Positions 1,594-25,810 of a stretch of DNA of 27,646 nucleotides are shown here, piece after piece. Origin of the DNA: Gammaproteobacteria bacterium (GTDB taxonomy: Bacteria; Pseudomonadota; Gammaproteobacteria; DSM-16500); assembly GCA_004322325.1 (NCBI GenBank), contig SCTP01000190.1, positions 1 through 27,646 of the forward strand, given 5' to 3'. Every line of letters starts with the position of its first letter. Positions within the stretch are counted from its first letter, which is position 1. The notes beneath the pieces were generated by a model that saw nothing but the letters and a program-made list of their open reading frames with translations, was not told where the DNA came from and did no database searches. Made by a program: the position numbers and the translations under genes.

Positions 1594-1608
1594 TTGAGGT
1601 TAATGATC

Positions 1609-2058
1609 ATGCCCAAATTAGATTTACTGTCAGCCCATGAATTTTGGAAAAGTTACGAAGATCCGATGATTTACCGCGTCATTTCTTTCATGGAAACGGC
1701 TGAAGATTGGGCGCTCGATGGTGATCCCACCCTTGAGCAAGTGATTGCGAAAATAGGTGAAGCATTAGATGAGTTAACATCGTTTGAATTAGGCAAAGAA
1801 GAACAATTTGTCGCCTTAAGTTCTCATATTAAAACATCGCGTATCTTACGATTATTACAGGCAATTGACACCATTGATCCAGGGTCAGCGTCTAAATTAT
1901 TAATGTATGCGGAAGAAAACAATAGTGCAGAAAATGCCATGGCGGGGTTATTCCTGCGGCGTAATATTGTGTTTGAACGATTACGATTACTCGCGCGGGT
2001 TTTTTCGCAGGAACGGTTTGAGTTAGTGTTAAAAATACTTGAGCATGAGCATGATTAA
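1609..2058 (+). CDS. icmW: IcmW, Dot/Icm coupling-complex chaperone
   Basis: A 149-residue acidic cytosolic protein closely matching the IcmW family in length and sequence: DPMIYRVISFMETAEDW near residues 17-33, then LLQAIDTIDPGSASKLL and a C-terminal NIVFERLRLLARVF block, which are the family's most conserved segments. In Legionella IcmW pairs with IcmS (and LvgA) and bridges effectors to the DotL coupling protein. The ATG at 1609 is chosen because GAGG at 1596-1599 is 9 bases upstream and the resulting MPKL start matches known IcmW proteins; a TTG at 1594 and an ATG at 1603 are in frame but sit on or too near the RBS. It begins 15 bases after the icmX stop, so the two are probably co-transcribed. 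Confidence 0.93.
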   Translation: MPKLDLLSAHEFWKSYEDPMIYRVISFMETAEDWALDGDPTLEQVIAKIGEALDELTSFELGKEEQFVALSSHIKTSRILRLLQAIDTIDPGSASKLLMYAEENNSAENAMAGLFLRRNIVFERLRLLARVFSQERFELVLKILEHEHD

Positions 2059-2293: not shown

Positions 2294-3259
2294 ATGGAAT
2301 ATATCATGATAAGTAGATTGCACACTTTATTTTCCCATTCTAGAAAAAATACACCTTCTGATCTTGAATCCGCACCTTTATTAAAAGAATTAACAGAGAT
2401 TGTCATTACAGATAGTAGAAATCATCCTGGTGAAGAAAATAACAATAACAATTACAACTATATTAAGCGTTTAGATTTTATTAAAAATAATCTGCAAGAA
2501 AATATTACGCGTCTTAATGATCAAATAAAAACTCAAGAAGATGTAGTGACAGCCATTAACAACCTCAAAACTGCCATAGAAGCTTCAATTAGTAATTTAA
2601 AAAATAACAAAGCGAATTTTATTGTTAGACATCCTTGGATTTTTTCGCAGTATGTTATTGCGGCAACATTGCTCCTATTTACCTCTTTTTCCATCCCCTA
2701 CTCCCTAAAGATCTCTGACGAAACTAAACAAGATACACCAGAAAATGCGGGTTGGTTCTTTGCTTCTACTCTTTCTGGTTCAGTAGGAATGGCATTACTG
2801 CTATACAATACGCTTGGACGCTGTCTCACCGACGAGATTCGGGTGTTAAAAGACGATCGTCGCTTTGATACACTCCTTGCAACCGATCAAACAGCCATCT
2901 TAAATTTCTTTACTAATAATCATCTCACTGTGCAAGATCGAGCACAAAATACACCTCCTCAAGATGAGACACAATTACATATCGTTACCGATAAACTCAG
3001 TAGCCTTGCGAATTTAATGCAAGCAAAAATGGACGACATGATAACCAAATTAGCTGCCAGTAAAAATGAACTTATGTCGTATAAAAAAGATGAAAAGAAA
3101 ATAAAAATGTTACATGACTTTAAAATGTTATGTTTCTCTAAGTTTGACTTTCCATATCGAAGTTGTGTTACTCCTGACATCATTAAAAATATTAAAGTTT
3201 ATGTGGGGAATAAAGAAGAAGATTATCGCAAGACGTTAGAGAATCAACTAGCAAAATAA
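2294..3259 (+). CDS. Unknown protein with coiled coils and a TM hairpin; possible Dot/Icm substrate
   Basis: A 321-residue, AT-rich ORF of unknown function. It has a charged N-terminal region with an Asn run (NNNNNYN near residues 49-55), a predicted coiled coil (about 58-110, LQENITRLNDQIKTQEDVV), two hydrophobic helices (about 116-136 and 153-171), then a second helical coiled region (about 235-270) and a basic C terminus. An acidic cluster EED lies within the last 16 residues (EEDYRKTLENQLAK), reminiscent of the E-block seen in some Dot/Icm effectors. An alternative start is the ATG at 2306, with GGA about 7 bases upstream. It follows the icm genes on the same strand after a 63-base gap. 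Effector status is a hypothesis; an ordinary inner-membrane protein is equally possible. Confidence 0.65.
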   Translation: MEYIMISRLHTLFSHSRKNTPSDLESAPLLKELTEIVITDSRNHPGEENNNNNYNYIKRLDFIKNNLQENITRLNDQIKTQEDVVTAINNLKTAIEASISNLKNNKANFIVRHPWIFSQYVIAATLLLFTSFSIPYSLKISDETKQDTPENAGWFFASTLSGSVGMALLLYNTLGRCLTDEIRVLKDDRRFDTLLATDQTAILNFFTNNHLTVQDRAQNTPPQDETQLHIVTDKLSSLANLMQAKMDDMITKLAASKNELMSYKKDEKKIKMLHDFKMLCFSKFDFPYRSCVTPDIIKNIKVYVGNKEEDYRKTLENQLAK

Positions 3260-3602: not shown

Positions 3603-3780
3603 CCCTAATAGGTGGCCAGGTGCTCAAAGCCACACAAAGATGGCAGGCATATTCCTCTTGCGAGTATTTTATTAGCCTACACCCGACCTTCTGAATGAGT
3701 AGGCATAAAAAAACCGCTATCGGGTGCGGCTAACCGCTTTGTGAGTGCTTTGAGGCACGAGGTTGTAAGATACAACCAAG
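3603..3780 (-). ncRNA. Structured Ash/C4-like phage leader RNA
   Basis: The region upstream of the small gene holds several complementary segments: a hairpin GGTTGTA/TACAACC (3761-3777), CACCCGA (3680-3686) against TCGGGTG (3720-3726), GCCTAC (3675-3680) against GTAGGC (3699-3704), and a long-range near-inverted pair of GTGCTCAAAGCCAC (left) and GTGCTTTGAGGCAC (right). On the minus strand, a short frame reads MPTHSEGRV, a TAG, then ANKILAR...LPSLCGFEHLATY, TAG. From memory this resembles the peptide and RNA layout found upstream of phage ash/Icd-type genes, where a C4-type antisense RNA is made. The in-frame stop makes the peptide a remnant or a leader. Family assignment is inference; the base pairing is directly visible. 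Confidence 0.45.
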
Positions 3781-3814: not shown

Positions 3815-3873
3815 TTTACCAAACGCTATCCTATTAGCGTATAGTAATACTAAACGCTAATAGAGTTTACATA
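3815..3873 (+). repeat. Left terminal inverted repeat of the ATPase cassette
   Basis: This 59-base segment is the inverted counterpart of 5028-5086, with 51 of 59 positions identical by hand alignment and a perfect stretch from 3849 to 3872. Inside it is a 31-bp palindrome (3832-3862; arms of 14 with one mismatch, loop AAT) plus an extra half-site AAACGCTA at 3821-3828. The repeat ends on the first base of the ATPase ATG, so it must contain or overlap the promoter and the ribosome binding region. Confidence 0.88.
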
Positions 3874-5021
3874 TGGTAAATCGAGCCTACTGGCAAGAAC
3901 TAATCGAATCCGCCTGGAAACATCGCTCCATTGTATGGCTAGCGGGAGTCAGGCGGGTAGGTAAAACACGATTATGTCAAAGCCTCCCCAATATTGATTA
4001 TTTCGATTGCGAGTTACCCCGAGTAAGACAACAATTAGAAGATATCGAAAGTTTTTTCGATACTAAGCAGAAAAAACGTATTATTCTTGATGAAGTTCAT
4101 CGACTAAATAATCCTTCTGAAATACTAAAAATTGCAGCTGATCATTATCCAAGCATAAAAGTATTAGCTACAGGATCATCTACATTAGGGGCTTCTTCAA
4201 AATTCGCTGATACGCTTACTGGTCGCAAAACCGATTTATGGCTCACCCCCATGATTAATGCAGAAATCAATCTTTTTGGCGATACTAATCTAAAACATCG
4301 CTTATTATTCGGCGGATTACCCCCTTTTTTCATGAGCAAGAGCTTACCCGAGCATGATTATCAAGAATGGATTGATTCTTACTGGGCAAAAGATATTCAA
4401 GAATTATTTCGCCTAGAACGACGAGATTCTTTTCAAAAATTTACGGAACTCTTGTTAGCCCAAAGTGGCGGCATTTTTGAAGCTTCCAAGTTTGCCATAC
4501 CGTGTGAGGTTAGCAGGCAAACTATTACTAACTACTTAAAAGTATTAGAAGCTACCTTTGTCGCTCACGTCATCAAACCATTTAATACTCATCGTCCAAC
4601 TGAAATTGTCTCCGCTCCAAAAGTATATGGTTTTGATAGCGGATTTGTTTGTCATGCAAAAGGATGGCTCGAATTACGGCAGGAAGATTTAGGTTTATTG
4701 TGGGAACATTATGTATTGAATGAAATGAATGCCAGACTGCAAACAAGGAAAATTCATTATTGGAGGGACAAACAAAAACATGAAATTGACTTTATCTTAC
4801 AAAAGAAACGCTCCAAATCTTTAATTGCTATTGAATGTAAATGGTTAGCTAATCAATTTGATCCTGATAATATGAAAATTTTTCGAGAAAAATATCCACA
4901 GGGTGAAAATTACGTGGTCGCTTCAAACATATCTGATTCATTCCATAAAAAATACGGCGATTTATCCGTTCATTTTGTTGGATTACATGACTTAATCATG
5001 AACGTACAGCAAATTGCTTAA
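3873..5021 (+). CDS. AAA ATPase with DUF4143-type C-terminal domain, bounded by inverted repeats
   Basis: A 382-residue ATPase of the AAA_14/DUF4143 class. The Walker A is GVRRVGKT (25-32), the Walker B is RIILDEVH (69-76, D73/E74), and a sensor-like LATGSST follows at 98-104. The C-terminal part has the DUF4143 signature with VYGFDSGFV (251-259), WEHYVLNEM (277-285), EIDFIL (304-309) and AIECKW (319-324); D306, E321 and K323 fit a PD-(D/E)XK-like nuclease arrangement, and E278 could supply the preceding acidic residue. The function of the family is not settled. There is no strong ribosome binding site (AGAG about 7 bases ahead at most). The gene is the only one between two long inverted repeats and is on neither flanking operon, suggesting a self-contained cassette. 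Confidence 0.88.
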   Translation: MVNRAYWQELIESAWKHRSIVWLAGVRRVGKTRLCQSLPNIDYFDCELPRVRQQLEDIESFFDTKQKKRIILDEVHRLNNPSEILKIAADHYPSIKVLATGSSTLGASSKFADTLTGRKTDLWLTPMINAEINLFGDTNLKHRLLFGGLPPFFMSKSLPEHDYQEWIDSYWAKDIQELFRLERRDSFQKFTELLLAQSGGIFEASKFAIPCEVSRQTITNYLKVLEATFVAHVIKPFNTHRPTEIVSAPKVYGFDSGFVCHAKGWLELRQEDLGLLWEHYVLNEMNARLQTRKIHYWRDKQKHEIDFILQKKRSKSLIAIECKWLANQFDPDNMKIFREKYPQGENYVVASNISDSFHKKYGDLSVHFVGLHDLIMNVQQIA

Positions 5022-5027
5022 TTACCG

Positions 5028-5086
5028 AATGTAAACTCTATTAGCGTTTAGTCATACTAAACGCTATTTTGATTGCGTTTGGTAAA
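5028..5086 (-). repeat. Right terminal inverted repeat of the ATPase cassette
   Basis: Inverted partner of 3815-3873. It contains a perfect palindrome with 11-bp arms around CAT (TAGCGTTTAGT at 5042-5052 and ACTAAACGCTA at 5056-5066) and an outer half-site near GCGTTTGG. Its end is one base from the yicC stop codon (TGA complement at 5088-5090). No target-site duplication is obvious. Confidence 0.88.
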
Positions 5087-5087
5087 A

Positions 5088-5957
5088 TCACTCCACATTC
5101 TGCACCTGCTCCCTCACCTGCTCAATCAACACCTTCATCTCCACCGCCATGTGCGTCATCGCCGAATCCGATGACTTCGACCCCAGCGTATTCGCTTCCC
5201 TATTCAACTCTTGCAACAAAAAATCTAACCGACGCCCTACCGCCCCACCCTGTTTTAATACCCGTCGAATTTCCCCAATATGCGTTTCTGCCCGCTCGAT
5301 TTCTTCCGCCACATCCATTTTCTGCGCAAACATCACCATTTCCTGTTCCAACCGCGTCGAATCGAGCTCCAATTTCACATCAGCAAAACGCTTCATCAAC
5401 CGTTCTTGCTGCTCCCTCATCACATACGGTAAATTTTCCCGCACCTTGACCAACTCTTGCTGCATTAAATCCATGCGCTGTAAAAATAATTGCTTTAATT
5501 CCTCCCCCTCTCGCCCACGCGCTGCTACCAAATCCGTCAGCGTCGTATTCACCAATTGCAGCACATGATCTTCCAACATACCGATATCCGCTTCTTTCGT
5601 CTCCAACACCCCCGGAAAACGTAAAATATCCGTCGAACAAGTAGAAACCGCCGTCGGCAACATCGTCGCGATTTGTGCACTTGCGTGGCACAGTTCTTGC
5701 GCAAGTACCATGTTCACCGTATACAACGAACCTGCCACCCTCACACTCGGCTGATAACGCAGCAAGCACTCTACTTTACCTCGCTTCAAATGCTCCCGGA
5801 TTCGTTCTCGAATAGGCATTTCAAATACACGCAATACATCCGGTAAATGTAAACTGACTTCTAAATAACGATGGTTAATCGAACGCATCTCACAAATCAA
5901 ACTACCCCACTCTCCTTGAGATTGCGCTCGCGCAAATGCTGTCATGCTATAAATCAT
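5088..5957 (-). CDS. yicC: YicC family endoribonuclease
   Basis: A 289-residue protein of full family length. The N-terminal YicC domain begins MIYSMTAFAR and continues with CEMRSINHRYLEVSLHLP, the family hallmark; the C-terminal DUF1732 domain holds RRLDFLLQELNREANTLGSKSSD and ends shortly after. In E. coli YicC is a hexameric endoribonuclease that takes part in small-RNA (RyhB) turnover. The start at 5957 has GAGGA 7 bases upstream. An FtsN-like gene lies 22 bases upstream on the same strand. In many proteobacteria yicC is followed by gmk; here the DNA directly after the stop is the inverted repeat of the ATPase cassette, so the usual neighbour is absent. Confidence 0.95.
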   Translation of the reverse strand: MIYSMTAFARAQSQGEWGSLICEMRSINHRYLEVSLHLPDVLRVFEMPIRERIREHLKRGKVECLLRYQPSVRVAGSLYTVNMVLAQELCHASAQIATMLPTAVSTCSTDILRFPGVLETKEADIGMLEDHVLQLVNTTLTDLVAARGREGEELKQLFLQRMDLMQQELVKVRENLPYVMREQQERLMKRFADVKLELDSTRLEQEMVMFAQKMDVAEEIERAETHIGEIRRVLKQGGAVGRRLDFLLQELNREANTLGSKSSDSAMTHMAVEMKVLIEQVREQVQNVE

Positions 5958-24029: not shown

Positions 24030-24293
24030 ATGAAAATACACACCACCATTCAAAAATGGGGAAATAGTTTGGCGATTCGCATCACCGGCCCCTTAAAAAC
24101 CATTCCCCATTTTACAGCCAATATGCCCGTTGAAATTGAGGTGAATGAAGAAGGACTCACGATCCATCCTCTCTCAAAAAAAAGAAAATTACTTTTTAAT
24201 GAAGCTCAAATATTAAAAGGATTGACAGCTGAAAATGCACATGCCGATGAAATAGTTGATATTCATTATCGAGAATTCAAAAACCATGAATAA
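24030..24293 (+). CDS. MazE-type antitoxin (AbrB/SpoVT fold)
   Basis: An 87-residue protein beginning KIHTTIQKWGNSLAIRI, the signature of MazE/PemI-type DNA-binding domains; the C terminus (acidic, ENAHADEIVDIHYREF) should wrap the toxin. AGAGAAG precedes the ATG by 5 bases. It overlaps the toxin ATG by 8 bases. The upstream region has a symmetric GTATAC (around 23991) that could be part of an operator for autoregulation. Confidence 0.88.
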   Translation: MKIHTTIQKWGNSLAIRITGPLKTIPHFTANMPVEIEVNEEGLTIHPLSKKRKLLFNEAQILKGLTAENAHADEIVDIHYREFKNHE

Positions 24294-24642
24294 ATATATT
24301 CCAGAACGTTTTGACGTTATTTTTCTCGATTTTGAACCTAAAAAAGGTAAGGAAATAGGAAAATATAGGCCCGCATTAGTTTTATCTTCTAAGGAATATA
24401 ATAAAAAAACAGGCCTACTTATTTGTTGCCCAATTAGCACCAGTATCAGAGGACACTTGAGCGAAGTCTTTGTGGATGGCCTCGAAAAACCCTCAGTTAT
24501 AGCTTCTAGCATTATTCAAACTTTATCTTGGCAAGAGCGAAAAGCAAAATTTATTAAAAAAGTCAGCAATGAAGTTTTTGAAGCTGTTTTACAGCGATTA
24601 TTACCTTTAGTTGGAGCTGATGAGTTTCTGGAGAGTAATTAA
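24286..24642 (+). CDS. MazF/PemK-type toxin
   Basis: A 118-residue endoribonuclease-type toxin. RFDVIFLDFEPKKGKEIGKYRPALVLSS and TGLLICCPISTSIRG are the conserved MazF/PemK strands, and PSVIASSIIQTLSW contains the third conserved block. The ATG at 24286 gives MNKYIPERFD and overlaps mazE, as usual in these operons; the in-frame start at 24256 would reach further into mazE and is less likely. MazF cuts mRNA at short sequences and is neutralised by MazE. It converges on the AAA ATPase gene with 22 bases between stops. Confidence 0.9.
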   Translation: MNKYIPERFDVIFLDFEPKKGKEIGKYRPALVLSSKEYNKKTGLLICCPISTSIRGHLSEVFVDGLEKPSVIASSIIQTLSWQERKAKFIKKVSNEVFEAVLQRLLPLVGADEFLESN

Positions 24643-24664: not shown

Positions 24665-25810
24665 CTAAAAATCTTTGTCATTAAAATACAACCTTAATGC
24701 CGCCGCCATTAATGGATCAATAAAGTGATATTCGCCATTTGTCTTTCTTTCTATATAATCCCGTTGTTCAAGTATTTTAAGCGCCTCAACAACAGAAGAA
24801 CTGGTCATATAAATTTTATTTAAAAATACCTTACCTGTTAATTCTCTGGTATGCCCTTCCGTGATTGCAATAAGAATCTTCCTTTGTCCCGCACTTAATG
24901 TAGATAATTCTCTTGCGATTTCTTGGCGCTCTTCTGTCACCATATTGATCCAATAAATCCGCGCATCTTCCGATGAAGGAGCACGTTTGAGATCAGACTC
25001 CCAAAGCCGCAGACATAATCCATTCATATAAAAGGGATGTCTTTCTGTAAGAGTAAATAAAGCTTCTAAGACAGAATCATCTAAATTAGAATTCCACCGT
25101 TTCCGCGCTAATTTATTGATATGCTTTCTGTAATGCTGCTCGTCTATTCTATCCAAAACAATCCTATCACATAACTTATATAACGGCCTTGCTTTATCGT
25201 AAAACATTCTTGCTAGTAAATGACGATTACTTCCTGAAAAAACAAAAGAAAGATAATGTGTTTGTTGGGCAACATGCCTCAATGCGCCTTCAATTCCTTT
25301 ACCTTCAGCAACCTCACCTATTTCTTGAATTTCGTCAAGAAAAAATACAGCCTGCTTATTTTTCTTGCTCAACAAATCTTCCAAAGCTTGCAATGCTTCC
25401 ATAATAGTAGTTGCTGGATCATTGCTACCCTCAGGAATAAGCGCAATGTTAACGCCCTGGGTACCTACCGTCCATTTTGCACTTGTTTTTTTAAAATACT
25501 GACGAATAATTTCCAGCACCTGCTCTATCGGTGTATTTATTTCACTAATGATTTTCTTAACTCCCGCCAATATCTGCTGCTCAACTCGTTTAGCATCCAC
25601 TGCAACAAATAGATCAGCTTCTCCAAAAAGAATAGGCAACTCATCGACAGCATATTTTACTAAGCTTGTTTTCCCATACCGTCTGGGTGACATGATTAAA
25701 GTATGTTGCCGCGATTTAATATTTGCGATCAATCTGTTTCGTTCATTTTCTCTATTGCAAAAAGCATTACCTTTTGCGATTCCTCGCGGGAAATAAATCT
25801 CATAACTCAT
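24665..25810 (-). CDS. AAA ATPase with C-terminal winged helix (PF01637-like), behind palindrome array
   Basis: A 381-residue ATPase. Walker A is SPRRYGKT (41-48), Walker B is AVFFLDEIQE (154-163, D159/E160), and a sensor-like FVFSGSNR lies near 189-196. The C-terminal part (LSAGQRKILIAITEG...MTSSSVVEALKILEQRDYIE) is a winged-helix domain. The PRRYGKTSL loop and overall form fit the archaeal-type ATPase class (PF01637), related to but distinct from the DUF4143 ATPase at 3873. There is no strong ribosome binding site. The upstream DNA is the palindrome array at 25846-25895. Function is unknown; these proteins are often found in accessory DNA. Confidence 0.85.
   Translation of the reverse strand: MSYEIYFPRGIAKGNAFCNRENERNRLIANIKSRQHTLIMSPRRYGKTSLVKYAVDELPILFGEADLFVAVDAKRVEQQILAGVKKIISEINTPIEQVLEIIRQYFKKTSAKWTVGTQGVNIALIPEGSNDPATTIMEALQALEDLLSKKNKQAVFFLDEIQEIGEVAEGKGIEGALRHVAQQTHYLSFVFSGSNRHLLARMFYDKARPLYKLCDRIVLDRIDEQHYRKHINKLARKRWNSNLDDSVLEALFTLTERHPFYMNGLCLRLWESDLKRAPSSEDARIYWINMVTEERQEIARELSTLSAGQRKILIAITEGHTRELTGKVFLNKIYMTSSSVVEALKILEQRDYIERKTNGEYHFIDPLMAAALRLYFNDKDF

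Follow-up and report, generated by a model that had tools for sequence, protein, structure and literature searches.

According to the available part of one paper, PDC-S01 is the fourth most common defence across prokaryotes, has undergone multiple transfers across domains and comprises nearly 40,000 loci (9,986 in archaea, 29,494 in bacteria), while validation is pending for most such defence candidates (PMC12988326). Restriction-modification (R-M) units have been described, in the accessible passages of three further papers, to insert with long, variable target duplications of the order of 100 bp and without a known mobile element (PMC3031569, PMC1643837, PMC3874152, citing Nobusato et al. 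2000; Furuta et al. 2010). A link between PDC-S01 or DUF4143 genes and either an operator array or duplicated gene ends was not found in the open-access literature, most subscription papers lying outside the search, and the term DUF4143 itself occurs in only one of the open-access papers searched.

Here, we describe a gene of this type that lies between two inverted copies of a short repeat in a stretch of 27,646 nucleotides, which is referred to as the window throughout. Taken as a whole, the explanation that we consider probable combines an operator of a PDC-S01-type ATPase-nuclease gene with insertion of such genes by long target duplication. The features concerned are the following.

1594..2058, + strand, icmW homologue
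3815..3879, + strand, left copy of the repeat, an operator-like array of four alternating half-sites (repeat search, half-site scan): 3817-3828 >, 3835-3846 <, 3848-3859 >, 3867-3878 < (the last overlaps the ATG)
3873..5021, + strand, AAA_14/DUF4143 ATPase-nuclease (PADLOC PDC-S01), 382 aa (ORF, Pfam, PADLOC)
3924..4268, + strand, AAA+ (AAA_14) ATPase domain, residues 18-132 (Pfam; conserved columns)
4389..4844, + strand, DUF4143 region, residues 173-324 (Pfam)
4665..5018, + strand, C-terminal PD-(D/E)XK nuclease-like domain, residues 265-382 with D306, E321 and K323 (alignment, model, fold matches)
5022..5086, - strand, right copy of the repeat, an inverted second array with half-sites 5073-5084, 5055-5066, 5042-5053 and 5023-5034
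5042..5066, + strand, 11-bp perfect stem with 3-nt loop and TTTTG tail within the right copy (terminator consensus match only)
5088..5957, - strand, yicC, the right-hand neighbour of the ATPase gene

Inverted arms and the array upstream of the ATPase gene

A repeat search of the window has revealed inverted arms of 65 nt (3815-3879 and 5022-5086) that are 86% complementary. The original prediction had described them as inverted copies over 3815-3873 and 5028-5086 enclosing a single AAA_14/DUF4143 gene, which is correct (51/59 identical), and the extended arms agree at 56/65 positions, their length being 65 nt because the fourth half-site overlaps the start codon. It was also right that the right repeat ends one base short of the yicC stop triplet (5088-5090) and that no transposase is present, the ATPase gene standing alone between the repeats. 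The arm had further been described as a 31-base palindrome plus an outer half-site; this is a cut through a four-site array with the order > < > <, in which 31 is the repeat period. The half-sites of the window are located at -56, -38, -25 and -6 relative to the ATG, and the left edge at 3815 is the exact start of DNA homology with a same-genus relative (G015). A 33-nt core pattern gave three matches in a both-strand search with up to 3 mismatches and none in 100 dinucleotide shuffles, and no arm copies beyond these two were found by BLAST in the assembly (2.03 Mb, 353 contigs, ~93% complete).

Scanning of genome contigs for relatives yielded 162, and the analysis was continued with the best 80 (60-66% identical), which are labelled Poribacteria, Acidobacteria, Nitrospirae, Planctomycetes, Chlamydiae, Dependentiae and others. 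The same alternating half-sites precede the start codons of most of these best 80 of 162. A strict half-site pattern matched 105 times in the 23.8 kb of 300-bp upstream stretches (62/80 loci); other DNA of these loci (441 kb) contains 23 matches, and the 2 matches in 37.8 kb downstream of the gene in the 80 relatives correspond to the background level. The consensus obtained from the weight matrix is TACTATATGCAA, and the half-sites alternate in orientation with a spacing of 18/13 and a period of 31 bp. A usable start for their positioning was available in 66/82 loci, 64 of which contain at least two half-sites; the commonest positions are -86>, -66 to -68<, -53 to -55>, -35/-37<, -22/-24> and -6<, with the last half-site of the array covering the start codon. 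The left arm of the window represents a four-site version of this pattern, and its conservation directly upstream of this gene across phyla identifies the left repeat as an operator-like array. A strict core-dyad pattern matched in 4/20 genomes, always at the ATPase locus, the operators of the other 16 deviating from it. In the closest relative (locus L098 in G015, 74% identical) the upstream site reads as a perfect palindrome of ~55 bp. It can be added that this palindromic operator (~2635-2690) reaches into the start codon, as if from fold-back copying.

Consensus matching has identified promoter-like pairs scoring at least 10 of 12 in 14/66 upstreams vs 8/330 shuffles. Among the family upstreams, the promoter-like -35 elements are most often found at -36 (11) and -38 (7), and the -10 elements at -14 (9), -42 (9) and -12 (8). 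The best pair of the window, at -57/-33, is off the family's commonest place, and its promoter-like sites are not above those of shuffles (5 vs 4.6).

Behind the gene, the inverted copy of the window scores 37, vs a highest score of 18 among 1500 mismatched pairs (77 loci, including the window and L098). The score of L034 (17) is below this mismatched maximum and is accompanied by a higher direct score of 22, because palindromic arrays give both. No inverted copy was detected behind the gene of the 74% relative. The proposal that the operators double as ends is therefore not supported, a clear inverted copy behind the gene being present in the window only, of 77 loci, and the suggested search for other copies with the same bounds has returned none in the genome and, among the 77 loci, only a weak one in L034. 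In our reading, the right arm arose by local duplication in inverted orientation and is no transposon end; it may since have come to serve as a terminator or as an additional binding site.

The ATPase-nuclease and its candidate role as binder of the array

The protein matches the PADLOC PDC-S01 profile PDLC04789 over near its whole length (E 1.5e-59, residues 1-354) and may accordingly be classed as PDC-S01-type, a candidate phage-defence ATPase. The AAA_14 domain contains a conserved P-loop (GVRRxGKT) and a conserved LDE motif. Helices 184-196, 204-208 and 215-227 together with strand 231-236 of the DUF4143 region look, in our reading, like a winged helix. A PD-(D/E)XK core consists of an alpha-beta-beta-beta-alpha-beta arrangement with D ... 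(D/E)xK on strands; such a core fold is found in the structure model (pLDDT 93.6), and the PD-(D/E)XK-like residues proposed originally, D306, E321 and K323, have proved to be conserved in 80, 81 and 80 of 82 aligned rows. The fold matches of this domain comprise McrBC chains, VRR_NUC, Can2, DdmD and restriction enzymes. The protein thus carries a PD-(D/E)XK nuclease-like domain resembling that of McrBC.

For a partner of the gene, 474 ORFs within 2.5 kb of it were compared across loci and the 12 largest clusters examined. Poribacteria loci share neighbours among themselves, elsewhere a cluster covers at most 6 loci, and the only neighbour kind that recurs in several phyla is another DUF4143-type ORF (8 ORFs in the 6 loci L009, L027, L055, L068, L070 and L083), the two L027 ORFs probably being its own gene with a misread start. 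As a separate observation, DUF4143-type ORFs adjoin each other in several unrelated genomes (L009, L055, L068, L070, L083). Because no regulator or partner gene was seen travelling with the ATPase gene among these 474 neighbouring ORFs and 12 largest clusters, the ATPase itself is the likeliest binder of the array. Covariation of half-site letters with protein columns showed no clear enrichment in residues 196-240 (4, 2 and 4 of the 20 highest-ranking columns, 1.8 expected), and the letters at two of the three positions follow GC content. Palindromic sites that are conserved immediately before the start and accompany the gene, as found here, are expected of an autorepressed gene, the promoter overlap being given by consensus match only. 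The suggestion of an autoregulated gene is thus supported by an operator-like array conserved upstream across phyla and by the lack of a travelling regulator among the neighbours compared, with the ATPase as the presumed binder.

Insertion sites and flanking direct repeats

Between icmW, the product of which belongs to Dot/Icm-type secretion systems, and yicC, the window holds ~3.0 kb. In 3/6 same-genus genomes whose yicC region was compared, yicC faces icmW without the ATPase gene over ~340 (G011), ~500 (G002) and ~840 bp (G006); in the other three (G009, G008, G015) icmW is not within the compared stretch around yicC. Part of the 3.0 kb is occupied by a 321-aa ORF (2294-3259) that has neither a Pfam match nor a homologue in any of 33 related genomes. 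Within 5 bases of either end of the unit (3815/5086) there is no direct match >3 bases, no long target duplication was detected at the window or at the closest relative in G015, and no remnant of the yicC 3' end was found at the left border. The comparison of the yicC region that had been proposed has thus yielded the empty arrangement in G006, G002 and G011 and no duplication at the window borders, the intergenic DNA being too diverged to place the insertion breakpoints against these three genomes. The gene order suggests that a segment carrying the ATPase gene has entered the window between icmW and yicC.

Further features of the window have been recorded. The 321-aa ORF at 2294-3259 contains hydrophobic stretches by eye; an sRNA-Xcc1 family RNA (3606-3688, - strand, 67.1 bits, gathering 53) adjoins the unit on the left and lies beside a 92-aa ORF; IcmW and its neighbouring ORF (400-2058) are conserved together in same-genus genomes; and at 24030-24642 and 24665-25810 a MazE-like ORF (below the Pfam cut-off) and a PemK-type toxin gene adjoin a second AAA_14/ATPase_2-type ATPase.

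Across the family, the upstream DNA of each gene was compared with its downstream DNA, a test in which 1500 mismatched pairs never exceeded a score of 15. Flank length set the number of loci (77/82 for the inverted-copy test, 79/82 for the first repeat test, in which the start of L027 was read as a 41-residue stub). In the first set, 8/79 genes score >15, all reaching 20, among them the window and L034, where the repeat is the operator itself; of the 143 control ORFs, one scores >15, and this is the second DUF4143 gene of L068, a PDC-S01 match. The second set is made up of distant DUF4143 genes that come mostly from related genomes (114 ORFs in L099-L208, reduced to 96 by removal of duplicates and short flanks), of which 7/96 reach 20 vs 3/160 controls (p 0.04; 4 controls >15), the three control matches being two Fic genes matching SoFic profiles and one DUF4942 gene. 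When both sets are pooled, with the window and L034 as non-hits (their repeats are operator) and the second L068 ATPase moved from the controls to the family, flanking direct repeats with a score of at least 20 are found at 14/176 DUF4143 genes vs 3/302 control ORFs (Fisher p 1.3e-4), and the numbers are unchanged in a recount based on distinct 3' ends. A looser cut-off (>15) results in 14/176 vs 4/302 (p 6e-4), and moving all of the at most five further DUF4143-type ORFs that possibly stand among the first-set controls as non-hits results in p 1.8e-4. The long repeats of L009, L080, L167 and L198 had been candidates for duplicated gene ends and were read as repetitive intergenic DNA; without these four cases, the count is 10/176 vs 3/302 (p 0.006). 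Long flanking repeats, of ~30-170 bp, occur in only ~8% of family loci, and most of their copies are not exact (79-92% identical). The repeated stretches are as follows.

L112: 3' end of thyA, 77 bp
L111: 3' end of queA, 54 bp
L069: 3' end of a lysine-decarboxylase-like gene, ~91 bp
L115: 3' end of an ORF without Pfam match, ~80 bp
L140: 5' part of lptE, ~150-167 bp
L011: start of a family 9 glycosyltransferase gene, 36 bp
L074: exact 57-bp stretch, terminator-like; within the right repeat, 34 bp match the end of a tRNA-Phe
L159: 32 bp, diverged, the weakest of those counted as gene ends
L068: end of a luxR-type gene, 87-93 bp, three times, the third copy joined to the gene and one DUF4143 gene lying between each pair

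The target genes differ from locus to locus, and for L011 an empty site has been located in G175, in which its two flanking genes abut. Beside the series of L068, the stretch 1-826 holds a further short DUF4143-type ORF, the end of which (820) directly precedes the first copy of the luxR-type end (826); it is perhaps a third insertion in the series. Across related genomes, thyA gave a match in 35/38, with an extra gene end only in G019; the two thyA ends in G045 belong to one gene that is divided between two contigs. The two thyA ends of L112 differ in a tight base cluster, as if from different lineages, and because these copies have diverged, duplication by recombination with donor DNA carrying the gene end appears favoured over paired nicks by the nuclease in at least L112.

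In the protein tree (81 rows; L027, with an internal stop, was left out of the 82), 25 label changes are counted for 15 phyla, vs a minimum of 14 and a shuffled mean of 46, with 15 rows unlabelled; the pattern is partly grouped by phylum and partly scattered. Since the Poribacteria copies form one supported group and the Acidobacteriota copies one weakly supported group, part of the family's spread may be vertical. Plasmid records gave 332 matches, all <60% identity, and viral contigs two matches at 67% without flanking repeats. Two ideas on mobility have been discarded: insertion at tRNA genes as a rule (a tRNA within 300 bp in only 5/82 loci, L033 and L046 being the same locus type), and transposition in near-relative pairs sharing only operator and gene (L051 and L054 share a downstream gene and are one locus). 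Separately, G015 has 26 DUF4143 matches in its 1.7-Mb genome, and there are none in five same-genus genomes. At L149 (4917-5984) and L193 (1811-3331), Fic genes that match SoFic profiles are flanked by an exact 86-bp and by a 53-bp direct repeat, respectively, and may insert in the same way as DUF4143 genes; a DUF4942 gene at L192 (5008-6813) has flanking direct repeats of ~178 bp.

Readings of the locus and comparison with known systems

In the explanation that we favour, a PDC-S01-type AAA+ ATPase that also has a PD-(D/E)XK nuclease-like domain would have the 59/65-bp repeat as its operator. The ATPase would bind the array, probably via its winged-helix-like region, and would act as the repressor of its own gene; in whatever host it arrives, a new copy could thus first be expressed and then be kept at a low level. 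The gene would be a selfish or defensive nuclease unit behaving like an R-M gene. Its route into genomes would be 'insertion with long target duplication', with no transposase working on terminal repeats; in the window, a segment carrying the ATPase would have been acquired between icmW and yicC, with the 3' inverted operator as a local duplication. Mobility of the family is supported, from comparison of the loci, by patchy phyla, long flanking direct repeats in a minority of loci and empty sites. The compact mobile unit of the original prediction is consequently supported at the family level, where these features are found; the window's own copy shows no such duplication. Counted against the favoured explanation are the promoter pair of the window, off the family position, the presence of repeats in ~8% of loci only (with four of the 14 cases resembling repetitive intergenic DNA), the absence of a long target duplication from the window and G015, the lack of clear enrichment in the covariation comparison and the groups in the tree that follow phylum.

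A transposon-like unit, in which the ATPase-nuclease recognises the inverted repeats as ends and uses them to excise and insert the gene, would fit repeats that bound the gene tightly and the nuclease-like fold of the protein. We regard it as very unlikely, as there is no transposase, no target duplication >3 bases at 3815/5086, no further copy found in the genome and no shared inverted end among 77 loci: the window alone has a clear inverted copy, the 74% relative has none, and half-sites downstream of the gene are at background in the 80 relatives. That a MITE or intergenic repeat family flanks an unrelated gene by chance, as a short palindromic repeat without transposase might suggest, is scarcely credible, given that the two copies found in the genome are both at the ATPase gene and that the same motif recurs at the same ATG distances of this gene in other phyla. 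The right repeat by itself could be a mere rho-independent terminator shared by two convergent genes, its operator likeness a by-product of the inverted duplication and without regulatory role. A terminator-like hairpin indeed follows the stop codon of the ATPase gene at a distance of ~20 bp, where this gene and yicC converge, and faces yicC; its stem, with the 3-nt loop and TTTTG tail noted above, is perfect in the right copy and imperfect in the left; the whole 65-bp array, however, is kept (56/65) beyond the hairpin alone, and shuffles of the stretch contain 0.8 terminator-like sites on average. We hold this reading to be possible and rather doubtful; it concerns the right arm only, is compatible with the favoured explanation, and both can hold together.

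The insertion part of the favoured explanation is opposed by an ordinary autorepressed defence gene, inherited vertically and horizontally, the direct repeats of which arose by chance duplication or through homologous recombination (Campbell-type integration with a donor gene end) and not by gene-linked insertion. The rarity of the repeats (~8% of loci), the inexact copies (mostly 79-92% identical), the base cluster in the L112 thyA ends and the tree groups that follow phylum are all in line with it. However, controls show repeats less often, and their three matches (two Fic, one DUF4942) are perhaps mobile themselves; moreover, the serial insertions at one luxR-type gene end (L068), the exact 57-bp repeat in L074 and the variation of targets between loci argue against it, and we consider it unlikely. 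About equally unlikely, in our estimate, is a bolder form of the insertion idea, according to which PDC-S01/DUF4143 genes are self-mobilising one-gene elements: the ATPase-nuclease would cut or nick the target at two points ~30-170 bp apart, often at gene ends, leaving long duplications with the host gene kept whole, and would then shut itself down via the operator array, in a mode common to SoFic genes.

Returning to the favoured explanation, the operator array would provide a ready-made candidate DNA ligand and thereby a handle on what a PDC-S01 protein recognises, and the recurrent duplication of host gene ends suggests selfish insertions comparable with R-M units; the claims on binding and on insertion are both directly testable. 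Among the described systems, PDC-S01 is matched by the window protein over near its whole length. The nuclease-like domain resembles the chains of McrBC, a methyl-specific restriction nuclease, with an identity of only ~10%; McrB, in contrast to the ATPase part here, is a separate GTPase chain. The archaeal AAA+ ATPases 2qen (PAB2304) and 2fna (SSO1545) are 14-19% identical, with the nuclease part outside the aligned range, and RuvB leads the Foldseek list. For R-M units, as far as the accessible passages on them extend, the likeness lies in a nuclease-bearing unit with long target duplications at the family level: direct repeats were not seen at the window or G015 and are present at 14/176 genes vs 3/302 controls in the family, and empty sites are found in relatives (G006, G002 and G011 for the window, G175 for L011). 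Unlike them, the window has one gene, with no methyltransferase seen beside it and with ATPase and nuclease-like domain in one chain. By analogy, the family may be said to resemble R-M genes inserted with long target duplication.
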